Source: Spirosoma oryzae (GTDB lineage: Bacteria; Bacteroidota; Bacteroidia; Cytophagales; Spirosomataceae). Taken from it: a stretch of DNA of 64,000 nt. Location: positions 1 to 64,000 of the forward strand of contig NZ_PVTE01000006.1 of the NCBI RefSeq assembly GCF_003002825.1, written 5' to 3'. The notes below the pieces were generated by a model. That model saw only the letters and a program-made list of their open reading frames with translations. It made no database searches and had not been told where the DNA came from. Below are positions 37,734-41,517 of this stretch, one piece after another (the first letter of the stretch is position 1; each line of letters begins with the position of its first letter). Made by a program: the position numbers and the translations under genes.

Positions 37734-38444
37734 CTACGGCTCCATCGCTACCAGCGACGTACCGCGCAGTACCGGAATAACGTCGTAGAGGTCGTGTTGC
37801 AGACAGTAGGTGATGTCTTTCTGAATACCCAGCTTTTGCAGCCGCCGGATGTGCGACGCGTTGGCCATGTACCCAATCAGATTGTCTTTGCCCTGCTCGT
37901 AAAGCCGACCCGCCATGATAGCGCTGTCTTCGGCTAAGGCGTAACTGGTTTTGAGTCGTTCGACCAATGCCCCGGCGAAGAGTGTATCTTCCAGATTGAC
38001 CCGACCTTTCCAGCCGGCGCATAGAACGAGTACGTCGTACGGTTCGGTGCGTAGGTAGCTGGCAATGGCTTCCAGATTCAGGAACGACCCAACCAGTACT
38101 TTCACCGCCGACCGCGATTTGGTGATGGCCAGTGTGCCATTGGTGGTGGTCATTGCCACGTCGACCCCCCGAATACGCTCGTCCATATAGGTAAACGGCG
38201 AATTGTCGAGTTCAAAGCCTTCGACCTTGCGGGCGTTGCGTTCAGCTGCGGCCAGAAAACCACGCTCCTGATACCGCTGACATTCTTCGATGGTGGCTAC
38301 CGGTACGATGCTTCGTACGCCATAGGCGAAAGCCGTAACCATGCAGCTCGTCGCCCGAAATACGTCAGCTACAACCACGATGGTATTTTCCATCCGGTGC
38401 AGGTCGAGCAGGTCAGGCGTTAAACAGACGTCGATTTGTTTCAT
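37734..38444 (-). CDS. comB: 2-phosphosulfolactate phosphatase
   Basis: A 236-residue ComB-family enzyme. In methanogens this Mg2+-dependent acid phosphatase hydrolyses 2-phosphosulfolactate to sulfolactate. The family signatures are VVADVFRATSCMVTAFAYGVRSIVPV near residues 22-48, EGFELDNSPFTYMDERIRGVDVAMTTTNGT near 75-105, and LCAGWKGRVNLEDTLFAGALVERL near 140-163. In Bacteroidota its physiological substrate is not settled, since coenzyme M is absent; sulfolipid or sulfolactate metabolism is a guess. No sulfonate genes are beside it. Confidence 0.85.
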   Translation of the reverse strand: MKQIDVCLTPDLLDLHRMENTIVVVADVFRATSCMVTAFAYGVRSIVPVATIEECQRYQERGFLAAAERNARKVEGFELDNSPFTYMDERIRGVDVAMTTTNGTLAITKSRSAVKVLVGSFLNLEAIASYLRTEPYDVLVLCAGWKGRVNLEDTLFAGALVERLKTSYALAEDSAIMAGRLYEQGKDNLIGYMANASHIRRLQKLGIQKDITYCLQHDLYDVIPVLRGTSLVAMEP

Positions 38445-38452
38445 AATGGGTA

Positions 38453-38659
38453 TATGTATCCTGAACTTGTCCTGAACTGTGATTTATTTGATTGTACTGA
38501 TAGGCTATGATTTTTCTTTGTGAATCATGGGAATCCTGTAATCAGTGTAATCATAGTTCAAGATTGTCTGAACTATGATTCATGTGATTGAGATGATCGG
38601 CTGTGATTCCAAAAAATCAAGGCAATCATCTCAATCAAATAAATCACAGTTCAAGACAG
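38453..38659. repeat. Repeat family D, copy 1: two consecutive stem-loops downstream of gcvT
   Basis: Hairpin one has GATTGTACTGAT (38490-38501) against ATCAGTGTAATC (38541-38552), extended by TGAACTGTGAT/ATCATAGTTCA. Hairpin two has GATTGAGATGAT (38586-38597) against ATCATCTCAATC (38625-38636) around a 27-nt loop. The bases 38594-38628 recur exactly, inverted, at 39840-39874 on the other side of gcvT. Confidence 0.8.
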
Positions 38660-39748
38660 TTAGCGTACGAAAGGAAGTTTAACGACTTCGGCCTGTAGCA
38701 GTTTGTCGCGGACTTTAATATAGATGGTGCTGCCGGGTTTGCTCAGCGCGGTCGGAACGTAGCCCAATCCGATGCCTTTACCCAGCGTCGGTGATTGCGT
38801 GCCCGACGTGACTTCACCAATGGTGTTGCCATCGGCGTCGGCGATTTCGTAGTGGCCGCGCGGAATCCCCCGGTCGATCATGGTAAAACCGGCAAGTTTG
38901 CGGGGAACGCCCTGCTCTTTCTGCTGCTTCAGCACATCGGCGTCGATAAAGTCGTGCGTAAACTTCGTTACCCAGCCCAGGCCCGCTTCGATGGGTGAAG
39001 TTTCGTCGGTGATGTCGTTGCCGTATAGGTTGTAGCCCATTTCCAGCCGTAGTGTATCCCGCGCACCCAGGCCAATTGGTTTGATTCCGTAGGGCGCACC
39101 GGCTTCCATAATTGCGTTCCAGACAGCTTCGGCCTGATGGTTCGAGACGTAAATCTCAAAACCGCCCGCCCCCGTGTAGCCCGTTGCCGACACGATTACG
39201 TTGGCACAACCGGCAAAATTGGTTTTGACGAAAGTGTAGTACCCAATGGCGTCGAGGTTCTCCTCCGTCAGCGACTGCATCGCTTTTGCGGCCAATGGAC
39301 CCTGTACGGCAAACAGGCTCATTTCGTCGGAAATGTTGATCATCTCCACGGCCCCGTCCGTATTGTACTGACTGATCCAGTTCCAGTCTTTGTCGATGTT
39401 CGATGCATTGACGACCAGCATGTACTCGTGTTCGTTGATGCGGTACACCAGCAGATCGTCGACGATACCACCTTTGCCGTTGGGCAGGTAGCTGTACTGC
39501 ACTTTACCGTCGTACAGGGCATGGGCGTCGTTGGCCGATACCTTGTTGATCAGGCCGATAGCGTGCTCGCCTTTGAGCATAAACTCGCCCATGTGCGACA
39601 CGTCGAACACCCCGACGGCGTTACGGACGGTATTGTGTTCGTCCAGATCGGATGAATAGCGAACGGGCATCTCGAAGCCCGCAAACGGTACGATCTTCGC
39701 ACCGGCCTGTTGATGAATCGAATGAAGGGGAACTTGCTTGAGCGACAT
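38660..39748 (-). CDS. gcvT: Aminomethyltransferase, T-protein of the glycine cleavage system
   Basis: A 362-residue protein started at MSLKQVPLHSIHQQ (39748). T-protein hallmarks are PFAGFEMPVRYSSDLDEHNTVRNAVGVFDVSHMGEF at residues about 21-57, the ATGYTGAGGFEIY motif near 190, where folate-binding residues lie, and GLGARDTLRLEMGYNLYGNDI near 225. It transfers the methylene group from lipoyl H-protein to tetrahydrofolate. The gene stands alone, without gcvH or gcvP next to it, and is flanked by inverted family D repeats. Confidence 0.95.
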   Translation of the reverse strand: MSLKQVPLHSIHQQAGAKIVPFAGFEMPVRYSSDLDEHNTVRNAVGVFDVSHMGEFMLKGEHAIGLINKVSANDAHALYDGKVQYSYLPNGKGGIVDDLLVYRINEHEYMLVVNASNIDKDWNWISQYNTDGAVEMINISDEMSLFAVQGPLAAKAMQSLTEENLDAIGYYTFVKTNFAGCANVIVSATGYTGAGGFEIYVSNHQAEAVWNAIMEAGAPYGIKPIGLGARDTLRLEMGYNLYGNDITDETSPIEAGLGWVTKFTHDFIDADVLKQQKEQGVPRKLAGFTMIDRGIPRGHYEIADADGNTIGEVTSGTQSPTLGKGIGLGYVPTALSKPGSTIYIKVRDKLLQAEVVKLPFVR

Positions 39749-39767
39749 GAGCACTGAGGTTATCCCG

Positions 39768-39775
39768 CAAAGGTA
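39768..39775 (-). promoter_or_regulatory. -7 box of probable gcvT promoter
   Basis: On the minus strand these bases read TACCTTTG, a perfect TAnnTTTG box, 20 bp before the gcvT start. No clear TTG lies 19-21 nt upstream, and the family D repeat begins shortly above it. Confidence 0.4.
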
Positions 39776-39784
39776 CGAACATCA

Positions 39785-39984
39785 GCCTGTGATTGTCCTG
39801 AACTGTGATTGTCTTGAACTATGATTGATTTGATTCGTCTGATTGCCTTGATTTTTTGGAATCACAGCCGATCAGACGAATCACAAGTCAAGATTGTCAG
39901 AACTGTGATTCTTGTGATTACTTTGATGGGCTATGATTTTCAAATCAGCGCGATCATCTCAATCACAAGAATCACAGTTCAAGA
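39785..39984. repeat. Repeat family D, copy 2: two consecutive stem-loops upstream of gcvT
   Basis: Hairpin one has GATTCGTCTGAT (39832-39843) and ATCAGACGAATC (39871-39882) around a 27-nt loop that is the exact reverse complement of the loop in copy 1. Hairpin two has perfect 19-bp arms, 39901-39919 with 39961-39979. It fills the space between gcvT and the TonB-C protein gene. Confidence 0.8.
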
Positions 39985-41436
39985 CTATTCCAGCGTGAAA
40001 TTGATAGGCAGATTATATTTCACGCGGACCCGTTCACCCCGTTGTACGCCGGGCTTCCATTTGCCGCTCATGGCTTTGACAACGCGCAGGGCTTCCCGGT
40101 CGACGGAAGGAGACACGCCTTTTGTTACCTCATAATCGCACAATGTACCATCCGTACACACGACGAAGCTAACGAAAACCCGCCCCTGCTGTCCTTTCTT
40201 CTGCGCGTCGCTGGGATAGCGCAGGTTGTTAGCTAAAAACTGGCCAAGCCCCTGCATGCCGCCTTGAAACTCTGGTTGCTGTTCGCGCTCCGTATACGTT
40301 ACCGGTGCTTTCCCGTCCCGTTGCGACTTGCCTGATTGTAATACGCCTTTGTCGTAGATTTCTTCGTAGGTGTACGAATTATCATCATACTGACCCGTCC
40401 AGAGTCCCTGTCTTTTCCCCTGCACATACTCACCCTGCTCTATGTAACGAACCTGCTTCGTTGAGTCGATGCGTGAGCGGTCTATCTCGGTAAGAATTAC
40501 TTTTCCATTCCCGTCGATGACCGACTGCTTACCGTTGGGCTCCCAATAGTTGATCAGTTGCTCAGTATGCCCTTTGCCTGATGGGTTCTCTTCCTGAAAA
40601 CGAACCTGACGAATCTGTCCATTCGGATACCAGGATGATAAAAAAGTGCGCCCATCCGCTACATAGTCTGTCTCTATCAGAACACCGTTATCGTAATAGT
40701 GTAACGGGGTACTGGCAGGTCTACCATCGAGGTAGGCCGTCTTACCGACCAATATTCCGTTATTATTGACACTGTACACATAGTCAAACCAAAGACCGTC
40801 GGCGTTTTTGTACCCTGTCCAGGTAACGGATTGAGTGTCTGGACCCGCTTGCGAAATTTTTCGCTGCACAAGCGGAATTCGGGTCATCTCCTGCCAGTTT
40901 TTTCGGCCCCGTTCGTATATGACCAGATCGCCGTTCGGAATGCCCGTGCTATCGACGGGCATCAACTGCCGGTATTTGGCAACCGTAGAATTAGTTGTTA
41001 GCTTCTGATCGGCGGCATAGTATGTGATTCGATTCCCGGCCACGTAAGGGAAGGGCTCATTGCGGGTAAACACAACGGGGTACATCACCTGCTGCCGTAC
41101 AGCAATCCCGTCTTTTTTCGCTGGTTTCCAGGCATTGAATAATCGAAATACACGCAGGGCTTCCTGATCCAGATCCGGGCGAAGCGAGCGGAGCAGCGTA
41201 ACGTCGGTGATGCGTCCGTCCGGTTCAACGACGCCCTGAACCAGCACGCGTCCGCCCACACCTTCCGATGCGGCTTTAATGGGCTTACGCAAATTAGCGG
41301 CTAAAAACCGGGTTATATAATCGACGCCACCCCTCGGTATGGCTGCGCTATCGACTTCAAATTCCTTGTAAACAGGTTGCTGACTAAATCCGGCGATGGA
41401 TAACAGGAGGAGGGAAAGGAGAAAGACCGATTTCAT
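39985..41436 (-). CDS. Secreted protein with two TonB-C domains and central MORN/YwqK-like repeats, copy 1
   Basis: A 483-residue protein started at MKSVFLLSLLLLSIAG (41436), a signal peptide. Residues about 30-130 form a TonB C-terminal-like domain (GGRVLVQGVVEPDGRITDVTLLRSLRPDLDQEAL). Residues about 200-375 contain YYDNGVL, WYPNGQIRQVRF, YWEPNGKQSV and QGKRQGLWTGQYDDNS, a pattern of YwqK/MORN-like beta repeats. Residues about 395-480 are a second TonB-C domain (GRVFVSFVVCTDGTLCDYEVTKGVSPSVDREAL). There is no membrane anchor or Pro-rich linker, so it does not look like a standard energy transducer. The next gene is a close paralogue. Confidence 0.8.
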   Translation of the reverse strand: MKSVFLLSLLLLSIAGFSQQPVYKEFEVDSAAIPRGGVDYITRFLAANLRKPIKAASEGVGGRVLVQGVVEPDGRITDVTLLRSLRPDLDQEALRVFRLFNAWKPAKKDGIAVRQQVMYPVVFTRNEPFPYVAGNRITYYAADQKLTTNSTVAKYRQLMPVDSTGIPNGDLVIYERGRKNWQEMTRIPLVQRKISQAGPDTQSVTWTGYKNADGLWFDYVYSVNNNGILVGKTAYLDGRPASTPLHYYDNGVLIETDYVADGRTFLSSWYPNGQIRQVRFQEENPSGKGHTEQLINYWEPNGKQSVIDGNGKVILTEIDRSRIDSTKQVRYIEQGEYVQGKRQGLWTGQYDDNSYTYEEIYDKGVLQSGKSQRDGKAPVTYTEREQQPEFQGGMQGLGQFLANNLRYPSDAQKKGQQGRVFVSFVVCTDGTLCDYEVTKGVSPSVDREALRVVKAMSGKWKPGVQRGERVRVKYNLPINFTLE

Positions 41437-41517
41437 AAAGTGGTTGATCGAGGATAGTTGTGGCTGTAGATGTATAAGGCAGCTGCCACCTTTTCTTAAC
41501 GGAATGTCAGCCGTCAT

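Follow-up and report, generated by a model that had tools for sequence, protein, structure and literature searches.

The locus of the gcvT hairpins

The window, i.e. the whole stretch of 64,000 nucleotides of Spirosoma oryzae DNA that we have analysed, carries gcvT on the reverse strand between two neighbour genes of the same orientation, and the features of this locus are collected in Table 1. Four palindromic units are located around gcvT, two per side: the unit that adjoins the end of gcvT is separated by 3 nt from the TAA of this gene, while the unit by the TonB_C gene starts directly past the TAG of the latter.

As the original prediction had described, a 35-nt block of one unit is the exact reverse complement of a block on the other side of gcvT, and the two blocks form the only exact inverted pair of this length in the window; both contain the same 27-nt segment (CGGCTGTGATTCCAAAAAATCAAGGCA), closed by 12 bp in each, and the two stems, GATT-GAGA-TGAT and GATT-CGTC-TGAT, differ in a 4-nt block, all positions of which are paired in both. 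The description is amended here in two respects: the 27-nt segment, present as described, had been called a loop but is partly paired within the predicted folds, and the cores, which are exact, belong to full units that are longer and more numerous than had been noted. For each of the four units, none of 200 shuffled sequences has given as good a predicted RNA fold, and a scan of the window against Rfam has returned no match at the gathering thresholds.

Two terminator-like sites, each a G+C-rich stem followed by a T run, occur between positions 38400 and 40050, where 1.8 would be expected by chance; both are located outside the units, and the reading of the units as intrinsic terminators is rejected.

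Table 1. Genes, palindromic units and repeated segments around gcvT (positions of the window).
Feature	Position	Strand	Evidence
Neighbour gene, 2-phosphosulpholactate phosphatase family	37737..38444	-	PF04029
Arm-edge repeated fragment (CCTGAACT.TGTCCTGAACTG)	38459..38478	+	family D2
Outer palindromic unit downstream of gcvT, adjoining the phosphatase gene start	38468..38560	-	repeat-family match; fold -16.1 kcal/mol, z -2.7
Palindromic unit just past the gcvT stop, containing the first 35-nt block	38564..38658	-	repeat-family match; fold -51.4 kcal/mol, z -11.3
35-nt block (core and inner stem)	38594..38628	+	reverse complement of 39840-39874
gcvT	38663..39754	-	PF01571 and PF08669; TIGR00528
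Arm-edge repeated fragments (CCTGTGATTGTCCTGAACTGTGATTGTC)	39786..39813	+	family D2
Palindromic unit with degenerate outer arm, containing the second 35-nt block	39810..39889	-	unit parse; fold -27.3 kcal/mol, z -5.5
35-nt block, inverted copy	39840..39874	-	reverse complement of 38594-38628
Palindromic unit immediately after the TonB_C gene stop codon	39896..39985	-	unit parse; fold -41.8 kcal/mol, z -9.3
Neighbour gene with TonB_C domain	39988..41517	-	PF03544

A dispersed family of units at gene ends

The units have the architecture TTGAACTRTGATT-N4-TGATT-N4-TGATRGRCTRTGATT, followed by a loop and by a right arm that roughly mirrors the left one, forming a quasi-palindrome of about 86 nt (parsed full units are mostly 84-97 nt long) with arms that are built of 9-nt steps, i.e. 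TGATT and four variable bases; the edges common to full units are TGTCTTGAAC/GTTCAAGACA. The hairpins go beyond chance, because a BLAST search of this genome with a 103-nt query yields 89 matches (both strands of palindromes being counted), and 45 units could be parsed with both arms. In some arms (L013, L014, L016, L262), CTGTGATT is swapped for CCGCCGGGCGGCCCCGTGTGATT, a small palindromic insert that recurs across units and in genome G020.

In order to place the units relative to genes, we have used the 24 stretches with listed matches outside the window, together with the window itself and mechanical ORF calls, a set that contains 31 clusters of units. None of the 31 clusters is located between divergent genes, compared with 59 of 320 spacers that are divergent in stretches of 20 related species (p=0.004). 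A stop codon is faced, at a distance of up to 600 nt, by 37 cluster edges, 25 of which are located at most 20 nt from it (median 8 nt), while 8 of the 24 edges that face a start are as close (median 41.5). As a host gene, gcvT is nothing special to the family, as 29 further clusters are located at other genes. The possibility that the clusters share neighbour genes has been rejected, an all-against-all BLASTP comparison of the cluster-flanking ORFs having found no pair at 1e-4. The hairpins are thus shown to be members of a dispersed palindromic family that is located at gene ends.

Matches to the element were used to fetch 13 loci from G020 and 12 from G022; of these, 12 and 12, respectively, are in synteny with loci that are occupied in Spirosoma oryzae, and by eye the corresponding loci differ in the number, the orientation and the blocks of their units; therefore, the spread within the clade is old, and change is occurring in place.

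Pairing between the arms

The paired difference between the two gcvT stems had been taken to argue for selection on a folded structure, and this argument is mostly not borne out by the family: exact pairing of the named 4-nt block is seen in 3 units of the 38 that are usable, where permutation gives 1.63 (p=0.22), and when G-U pairs are counted the observed value is 0.428 versus 0.444 permuted. In the other 35 units the element is present with this block unpaired, an outcome that the original prediction had itself named as one that would refute it. The second hairpin of the original prediction (39816-39889), with its degenerate outer right arm, is located outside the count of exact pairs, which becomes 4/39 when it is added by hand. 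For the block that follows towards the outside, pairing is mildly in excess (8/36 versus 3.55 permuted, p=0.015; with G-U pairs, 0.722 versus 0.636, p=0.005); units in which the block is not 4 nt long, 9 and 7 of the 45 and including the second hairpin just mentioned, are omitted from the two permutations. A stricter parse of 33 units leaves 3 paired units for the named block (p=0.17) and 6 for the outer block (p=0.04), and no excess of pairing is seen in either block among the 13 units of G020 and the 7 units of G022.

Among the matches listed for four related species, we have also compared 31 pairs of arms that both fit the GAACCNGGATT pattern (19 from G034, 5 from G004, 4 from G031 and 3 from G027), leaving out the arm pairs of G001 and G019, one pair of G027 with an indel and one pair of G034 that spans a GxxExxY gene. 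The two blocks are identical between the arms in 18/31 and 16/31 pairs, versus 6.15 and 3.00 permuted. This agreement is driven mostly by G034: in the remaining species, the outer block taken by itself does not reach significance (p=0.10, 0.23), while the inner block is significant on mean identity (p=0.04, 0.005).

The arms therefore change together across the wider family, most of all in one species, while most units in this genome have drifted, as would not be expected under strong selection on individual pairs; copying from one arm or one copy to another is a better explanation of the joint changes than selection that acts pair by pair. A single inversion of the four bases has been rejected by inspection, as inverted GAGA reads TCTC and not CGTC.

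Palindromes of the gcvT spacer across the genus

The gene gcvT has been found in all 36 genus genomes searched, with 30 loci returned; the spacer between gcvT and the phosphatase gene measures 35-215 nt in 29 species, while the two genes overlap in G002. Ungapped palindromes with a score of at least 16 are located in this spacer in 17 of the 29 species (22 of 29 at a score of at least 12), and inspection by eye places them in several families with no relation to each other (GGATT/TGATT; GTGTCGGTTTTGAG; GTCGTAGTAG; GACGCAGGAAGCATC). In our sample of random spacers, taken from one 20-kb stretch of each of 20 genus genomes (L113-L132), a score of at least 16 is reached by 27/205 co-directional, 23/56 convergent and 1/59 divergent spacers. 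The gcvT site is thus enriched over random co-directional spacers (17/30, where G002, absent from the 29, is counted as having no palindrome; Fisher test, p=5e-7, for species that are not independent). Stem mismatches at the gcvT site, read on the transcript strand, comprise 23 G-T versus 11 A-C (p=0.058), and 32 versus 17 when pooled with the random co-directional spacers (p=0.044), a lean that hints at most at an RNA-level effect.

These figures bear on the reading in which hairpins at gene ends are themselves selected, i.e. compensatory changes would keep a stem that stabilises, separates or processes the transcript, while its sequence is free. The unrelated palindromes of the gcvT spacer, their near absence between divergent genes and the lean towards G-T are what such selection would produce; however, the lean is weak, the species are not independent, a position at gene ends is also expected from purifying selection on insertions, the 4-nt block is unpaired in most units of this genome, and the terminator-like sites coincide with none of the units. 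We consider this reading unlikely.

The spacers of the genus are generally rich in long palindromes with arms of short repeated words (TGAATGATTGA, AATGAATAATGG, GTAGTCGTAA, CACAGAGG). By eye, the gcvT spacers of G012 (L095) and G019 (L109) look chimeric, a different palindrome standing behind an arm of an older family, as though one element had taken the place of another on site; in G049, which belongs to a different family within the order, the 3' end of a coding frame seems, again by eye, to be entered by a TGAACTATGATT palindrome (L043, 4160-4250).

A GxxExxY gene between inverted arms

An association of such repeats with genes of the GxxExxY (TIGR04256) and S23 (TIGR02436) families was suspected, and it has been tested by looking for inverted arms around these genes. 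At the genus loci returned, arms with a score of at least 16 flank 17 of 27 GxxExxY ORFs (3 of 30 loci, having no central ORF, were dropped), compared with 0/80 random short ORFs, 3/30 gcvT genes and 5/81 GxxExxY ORFs with flanks swapped between loci; some loci are orthologous and hence not independent. Outside the sites tested, 15/29 S23 ORFs are located between inverted arms at the same score, versus 6/87 with swapped flanks (1 of 30 loci dropped, likewise). In the phylum-wide sample, from which 1 of 29 loci was dropped, 7/28 GxxExxY ORFs pass the arm test, versus 2/84 with swapped flanks. The S23 arms use other types of words (AGGAGTTAGGAG, AATGATGAATG, GTTTGTAGTTT; L167-L196), and the S23 genes with their arms resemble intervening sequence (IVS)-type elements outside rRNA.

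In Spirosoma oryzae, a GxxExxY gene (PF13366, C8:156984-157325) is flanked by two arrays of the same family as the gcvT hairpins. Full-length relatives, in which such arms enclose a gene, are found at the loci L022, L155, L163 and L282, taken over all the genomes. GxxExxY proteins are common, with a match in 122 of the 247 genomes that were sampled from the phylum. No solved structure is related to the protein by sequence up to E=1, and in the passages available from the open-access literature searched, where mentions are incidental, no function was found.

The MarC/PRA-PH spacer with and without the element

In G001 and G019, a GxxExxY gene is located inside TCTGAACTRTGATT-type arms, within the spacer between the MarC and PRA-PH genes; at E 0.001 the hairpin query matches nothing in either genome, and the G001 copy of the gene contains an in-frame stop. 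The MarC and PRA-PH genes are separated by 5 nt in G018, whereas the spacer with the element included measures 514 nt (G001) and 513 nt (G019); in the latter two genomes, the MarC stop codon is a TGA within the arm. On the sequences compared, the spacer shows a gain or a loss of the element, in a direction that it does not fix by itself.

Palindromes of the TGATTGAGTG/GAATGAGTGAATA type are located at one site before the PRA-PH gene in G021 (L244), G028 (L250), G004 (L252) and G031 (L254); the hairpins of G004 and G028 at this site have like flanks and arms that differ in step, as judged by eye.

Other phyla and the GxxExxY tree

An exact scan for the left arm and the core has found the arm-and-core consensus in 36 stretches, where our own arithmetic gives a chance expectation far below one. 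The record titles name Bacteroidales, Bacteroidia, Parcubacteria, Chloroflexi, Dehalococcoidia, Thiotrichaceae, Desulfobacteraceae, Fibrobacter, Sporocytophaga, Balneolia, Prevotellaceae, Symbiothrix and Spirosomataceae, a list that misbinning may inflate, most of the records being MAGs. By eye, the right arm is not evident in several of these records, and under a strict rule none of 7 two-armed copies is exactly paired, a number too small to use. In the Fibrobacter MAG (L282), five units are followed by a GxxExxY gene and then by another unit, the arm of which supplies the stop codon of the gene; the protein and the C8 copy of Spirosoma oryzae have 65.6% identity across 128 aa. With one query for each family at E 1e-4 and at most 8 kb of DNA per stretch, GxxExxY is found in this stretch only (1/36), and S23 in none (0/36). 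The original prediction is supported in part: its covariation argument has mostly failed, while the recurrence of the core consensus in several phyla lends support to its suggestion of a putative factor that recognises the core.

On a tree of 99 GxxExxY proteins (of 102 loci, one was left out for having no tblastn hit; one short protein and one duplicate were also left out), labelled by crude motif counts within 220-nt flanks, the 42 rows with GATT-type arms need 13 changes, versus 32.1 when shuffled, with 0 of 500 shuffles as low; this clustering is helped by near copies, and the tree is based on a short alignment and on a bootstrap that had not fully settled. The GATT rows are mainly located in two supported groups (14/17 and 20/22 rows, with 8 elsewhere), the second of which contains both the C8 copy and the Fibrobacter copy, while the CACAGAG labels (15 changes versus 15.1) and the CGCAAAG labels (4 versus 4.0) are unclustered. 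The GATT-type arms thus follow GxxExxY subclades, and the other arm types do not.

The breadth of this distribution also bears on the reading in which there is no mobile element now, and in which template switching during replication both generates the palindromes and preserves them in spacers that tolerate them. According to the available passages of PMC8794818, such switching can create hairpins and mend them with multibase compensatory changes, and both the hairpins of G004 and G028 and the many unrelated palindromes of the random spacers are in keeping with it; by itself, however, it would leave unexplained the same consensus in several phyla, as well as the 5-nt versus 513-514-nt spacer and the gene cargo. 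As a complete account it is quite improbable, while it may still be a means of keeping the arms alike.

A probable origin of the hairpins

In our view, the hairpins are probably solo miniature copies, located at gene ends, of a palindromic mobile element that carries GxxExxY; the derivation of the miniatures from such an element is well supported. This reading is based on the copies at stop codons, the arms that flank GxxExxY, the clustering of the GATT arms, the empty and filled states of the MarC/PRA-PH spacer and the arm-and-core consensus in records of several phyla. It is set against the age of the sites, the small share of phylum-wide GxxExxY ORFs that pass the arm test (only 7/28), the unclustered non-GATT arms, the single GxxExxY hit among the 36 cross-phylum stretches and the in-frame stop of the G001 copy; no transposition event, target duplication or excised form has been seen.

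The full form would consist of a small GxxExxY gene (PDDEXK_3, of a nuclease superfamily) between inverted arms of 9-nt steps, and the miniature form, which presumably arose by loss of the gene, would retain the arms and a short loop. GxxExxY may recognise or cut the arms or the target and may mobilise the element; insertions would survive in spacers at gene ends, where they do the least harm, and would multiply there as tandem arrays. The arms would be kept alike by template switching, or by recombination between copies at the conserved TGATT blocks, and not by pair-by-pair selection, and the RNA hairpin past the stop codon is probably a by-product that may protect or process the mRNA end.

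More tentatively, a broader class might exist in several bacterial phyla, in which a GxxExxY nuclease of the PDDEXK type recognises its own inverted arms of short repeats, copies them to gene ends and sometimes supplies the stop codon of the host gene; S23/IVS would then be its sister, and many hairpins that follow genes and lack an explanation would have come from the miniatures. The connection of GxxExxY with a widespread palindrome gives a common protein family a testable role and offers a possible relative for the puzzling intervening sequences of rRNA; it also means that paired stem changes in such repeats are not, alone, proof of selection on structure.

Comparison with known systems

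The IVS of 23S rRNA, associated with the S23 protein (PF05635/TIGR02436), are described in the available passages of PMC4990558 as selfish stem-loops, the termini of which are inverted and the loop of which may contain a small ORF. The family resembles them in its inverted termini, which form a long stem and are able to hold an ORF in the loop; unlike them, its units in the window and in the 31 clusters are located after or between protein genes and not within an rRNA gene, and its cargo is GxxExxY/PF13366 and not S23, the genes of which have other arm motifs.

MITEs are short forms of a gene-carrying element that retain its inverted termini. The family is similar in that it has full-length relatives, at the four loci listed above, in which a gene is enclosed by the same arms, but it is almost wholly palindromic, and it displays neither a classical transposase nor a target-site duplication.

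In the available passages of PMC3733652, where MITEs are also named, REPs are defined as palindromes of 20-40 bp that are tagged with GTAG or CGTC at one end, and the gene linked to them in REPtrons (RAYT) is thought to move them. The family is REP-like in its many extragenic, palindromic copies and in its tandem and inverted arrays, which recall BIMEs, and a Y1_Tnp match occurs in 29 of 36 genus genomes, as would suit REP-type elements mobilised by a transposase of the Y1 (RAYT) kind. This reading is weakened because there are carrier genomes with no Y1_Tnp match: 7 of the 36 genus genomes have none, past presence being possible, and among them G030 and G031 nevertheless have 35 and 22 pattern matches of GAACCNGGATT arms, while the sole match in the genome of Spirosoma oryzae is weak (1.9e-8; L042, G000:C40:29440-29679). 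The units also differ from REPs in their greater length, in having the common edges given above in place of the tag, and in their 9-nt step structure, and we assign very little likelihood to an origin by RAYT. The family works like the IVS and the MITE/REP elements, yet it fails the tested features of the IVS, i.e. rRNA location and S23 cargo, and those of REPs, i.e. size and tag.
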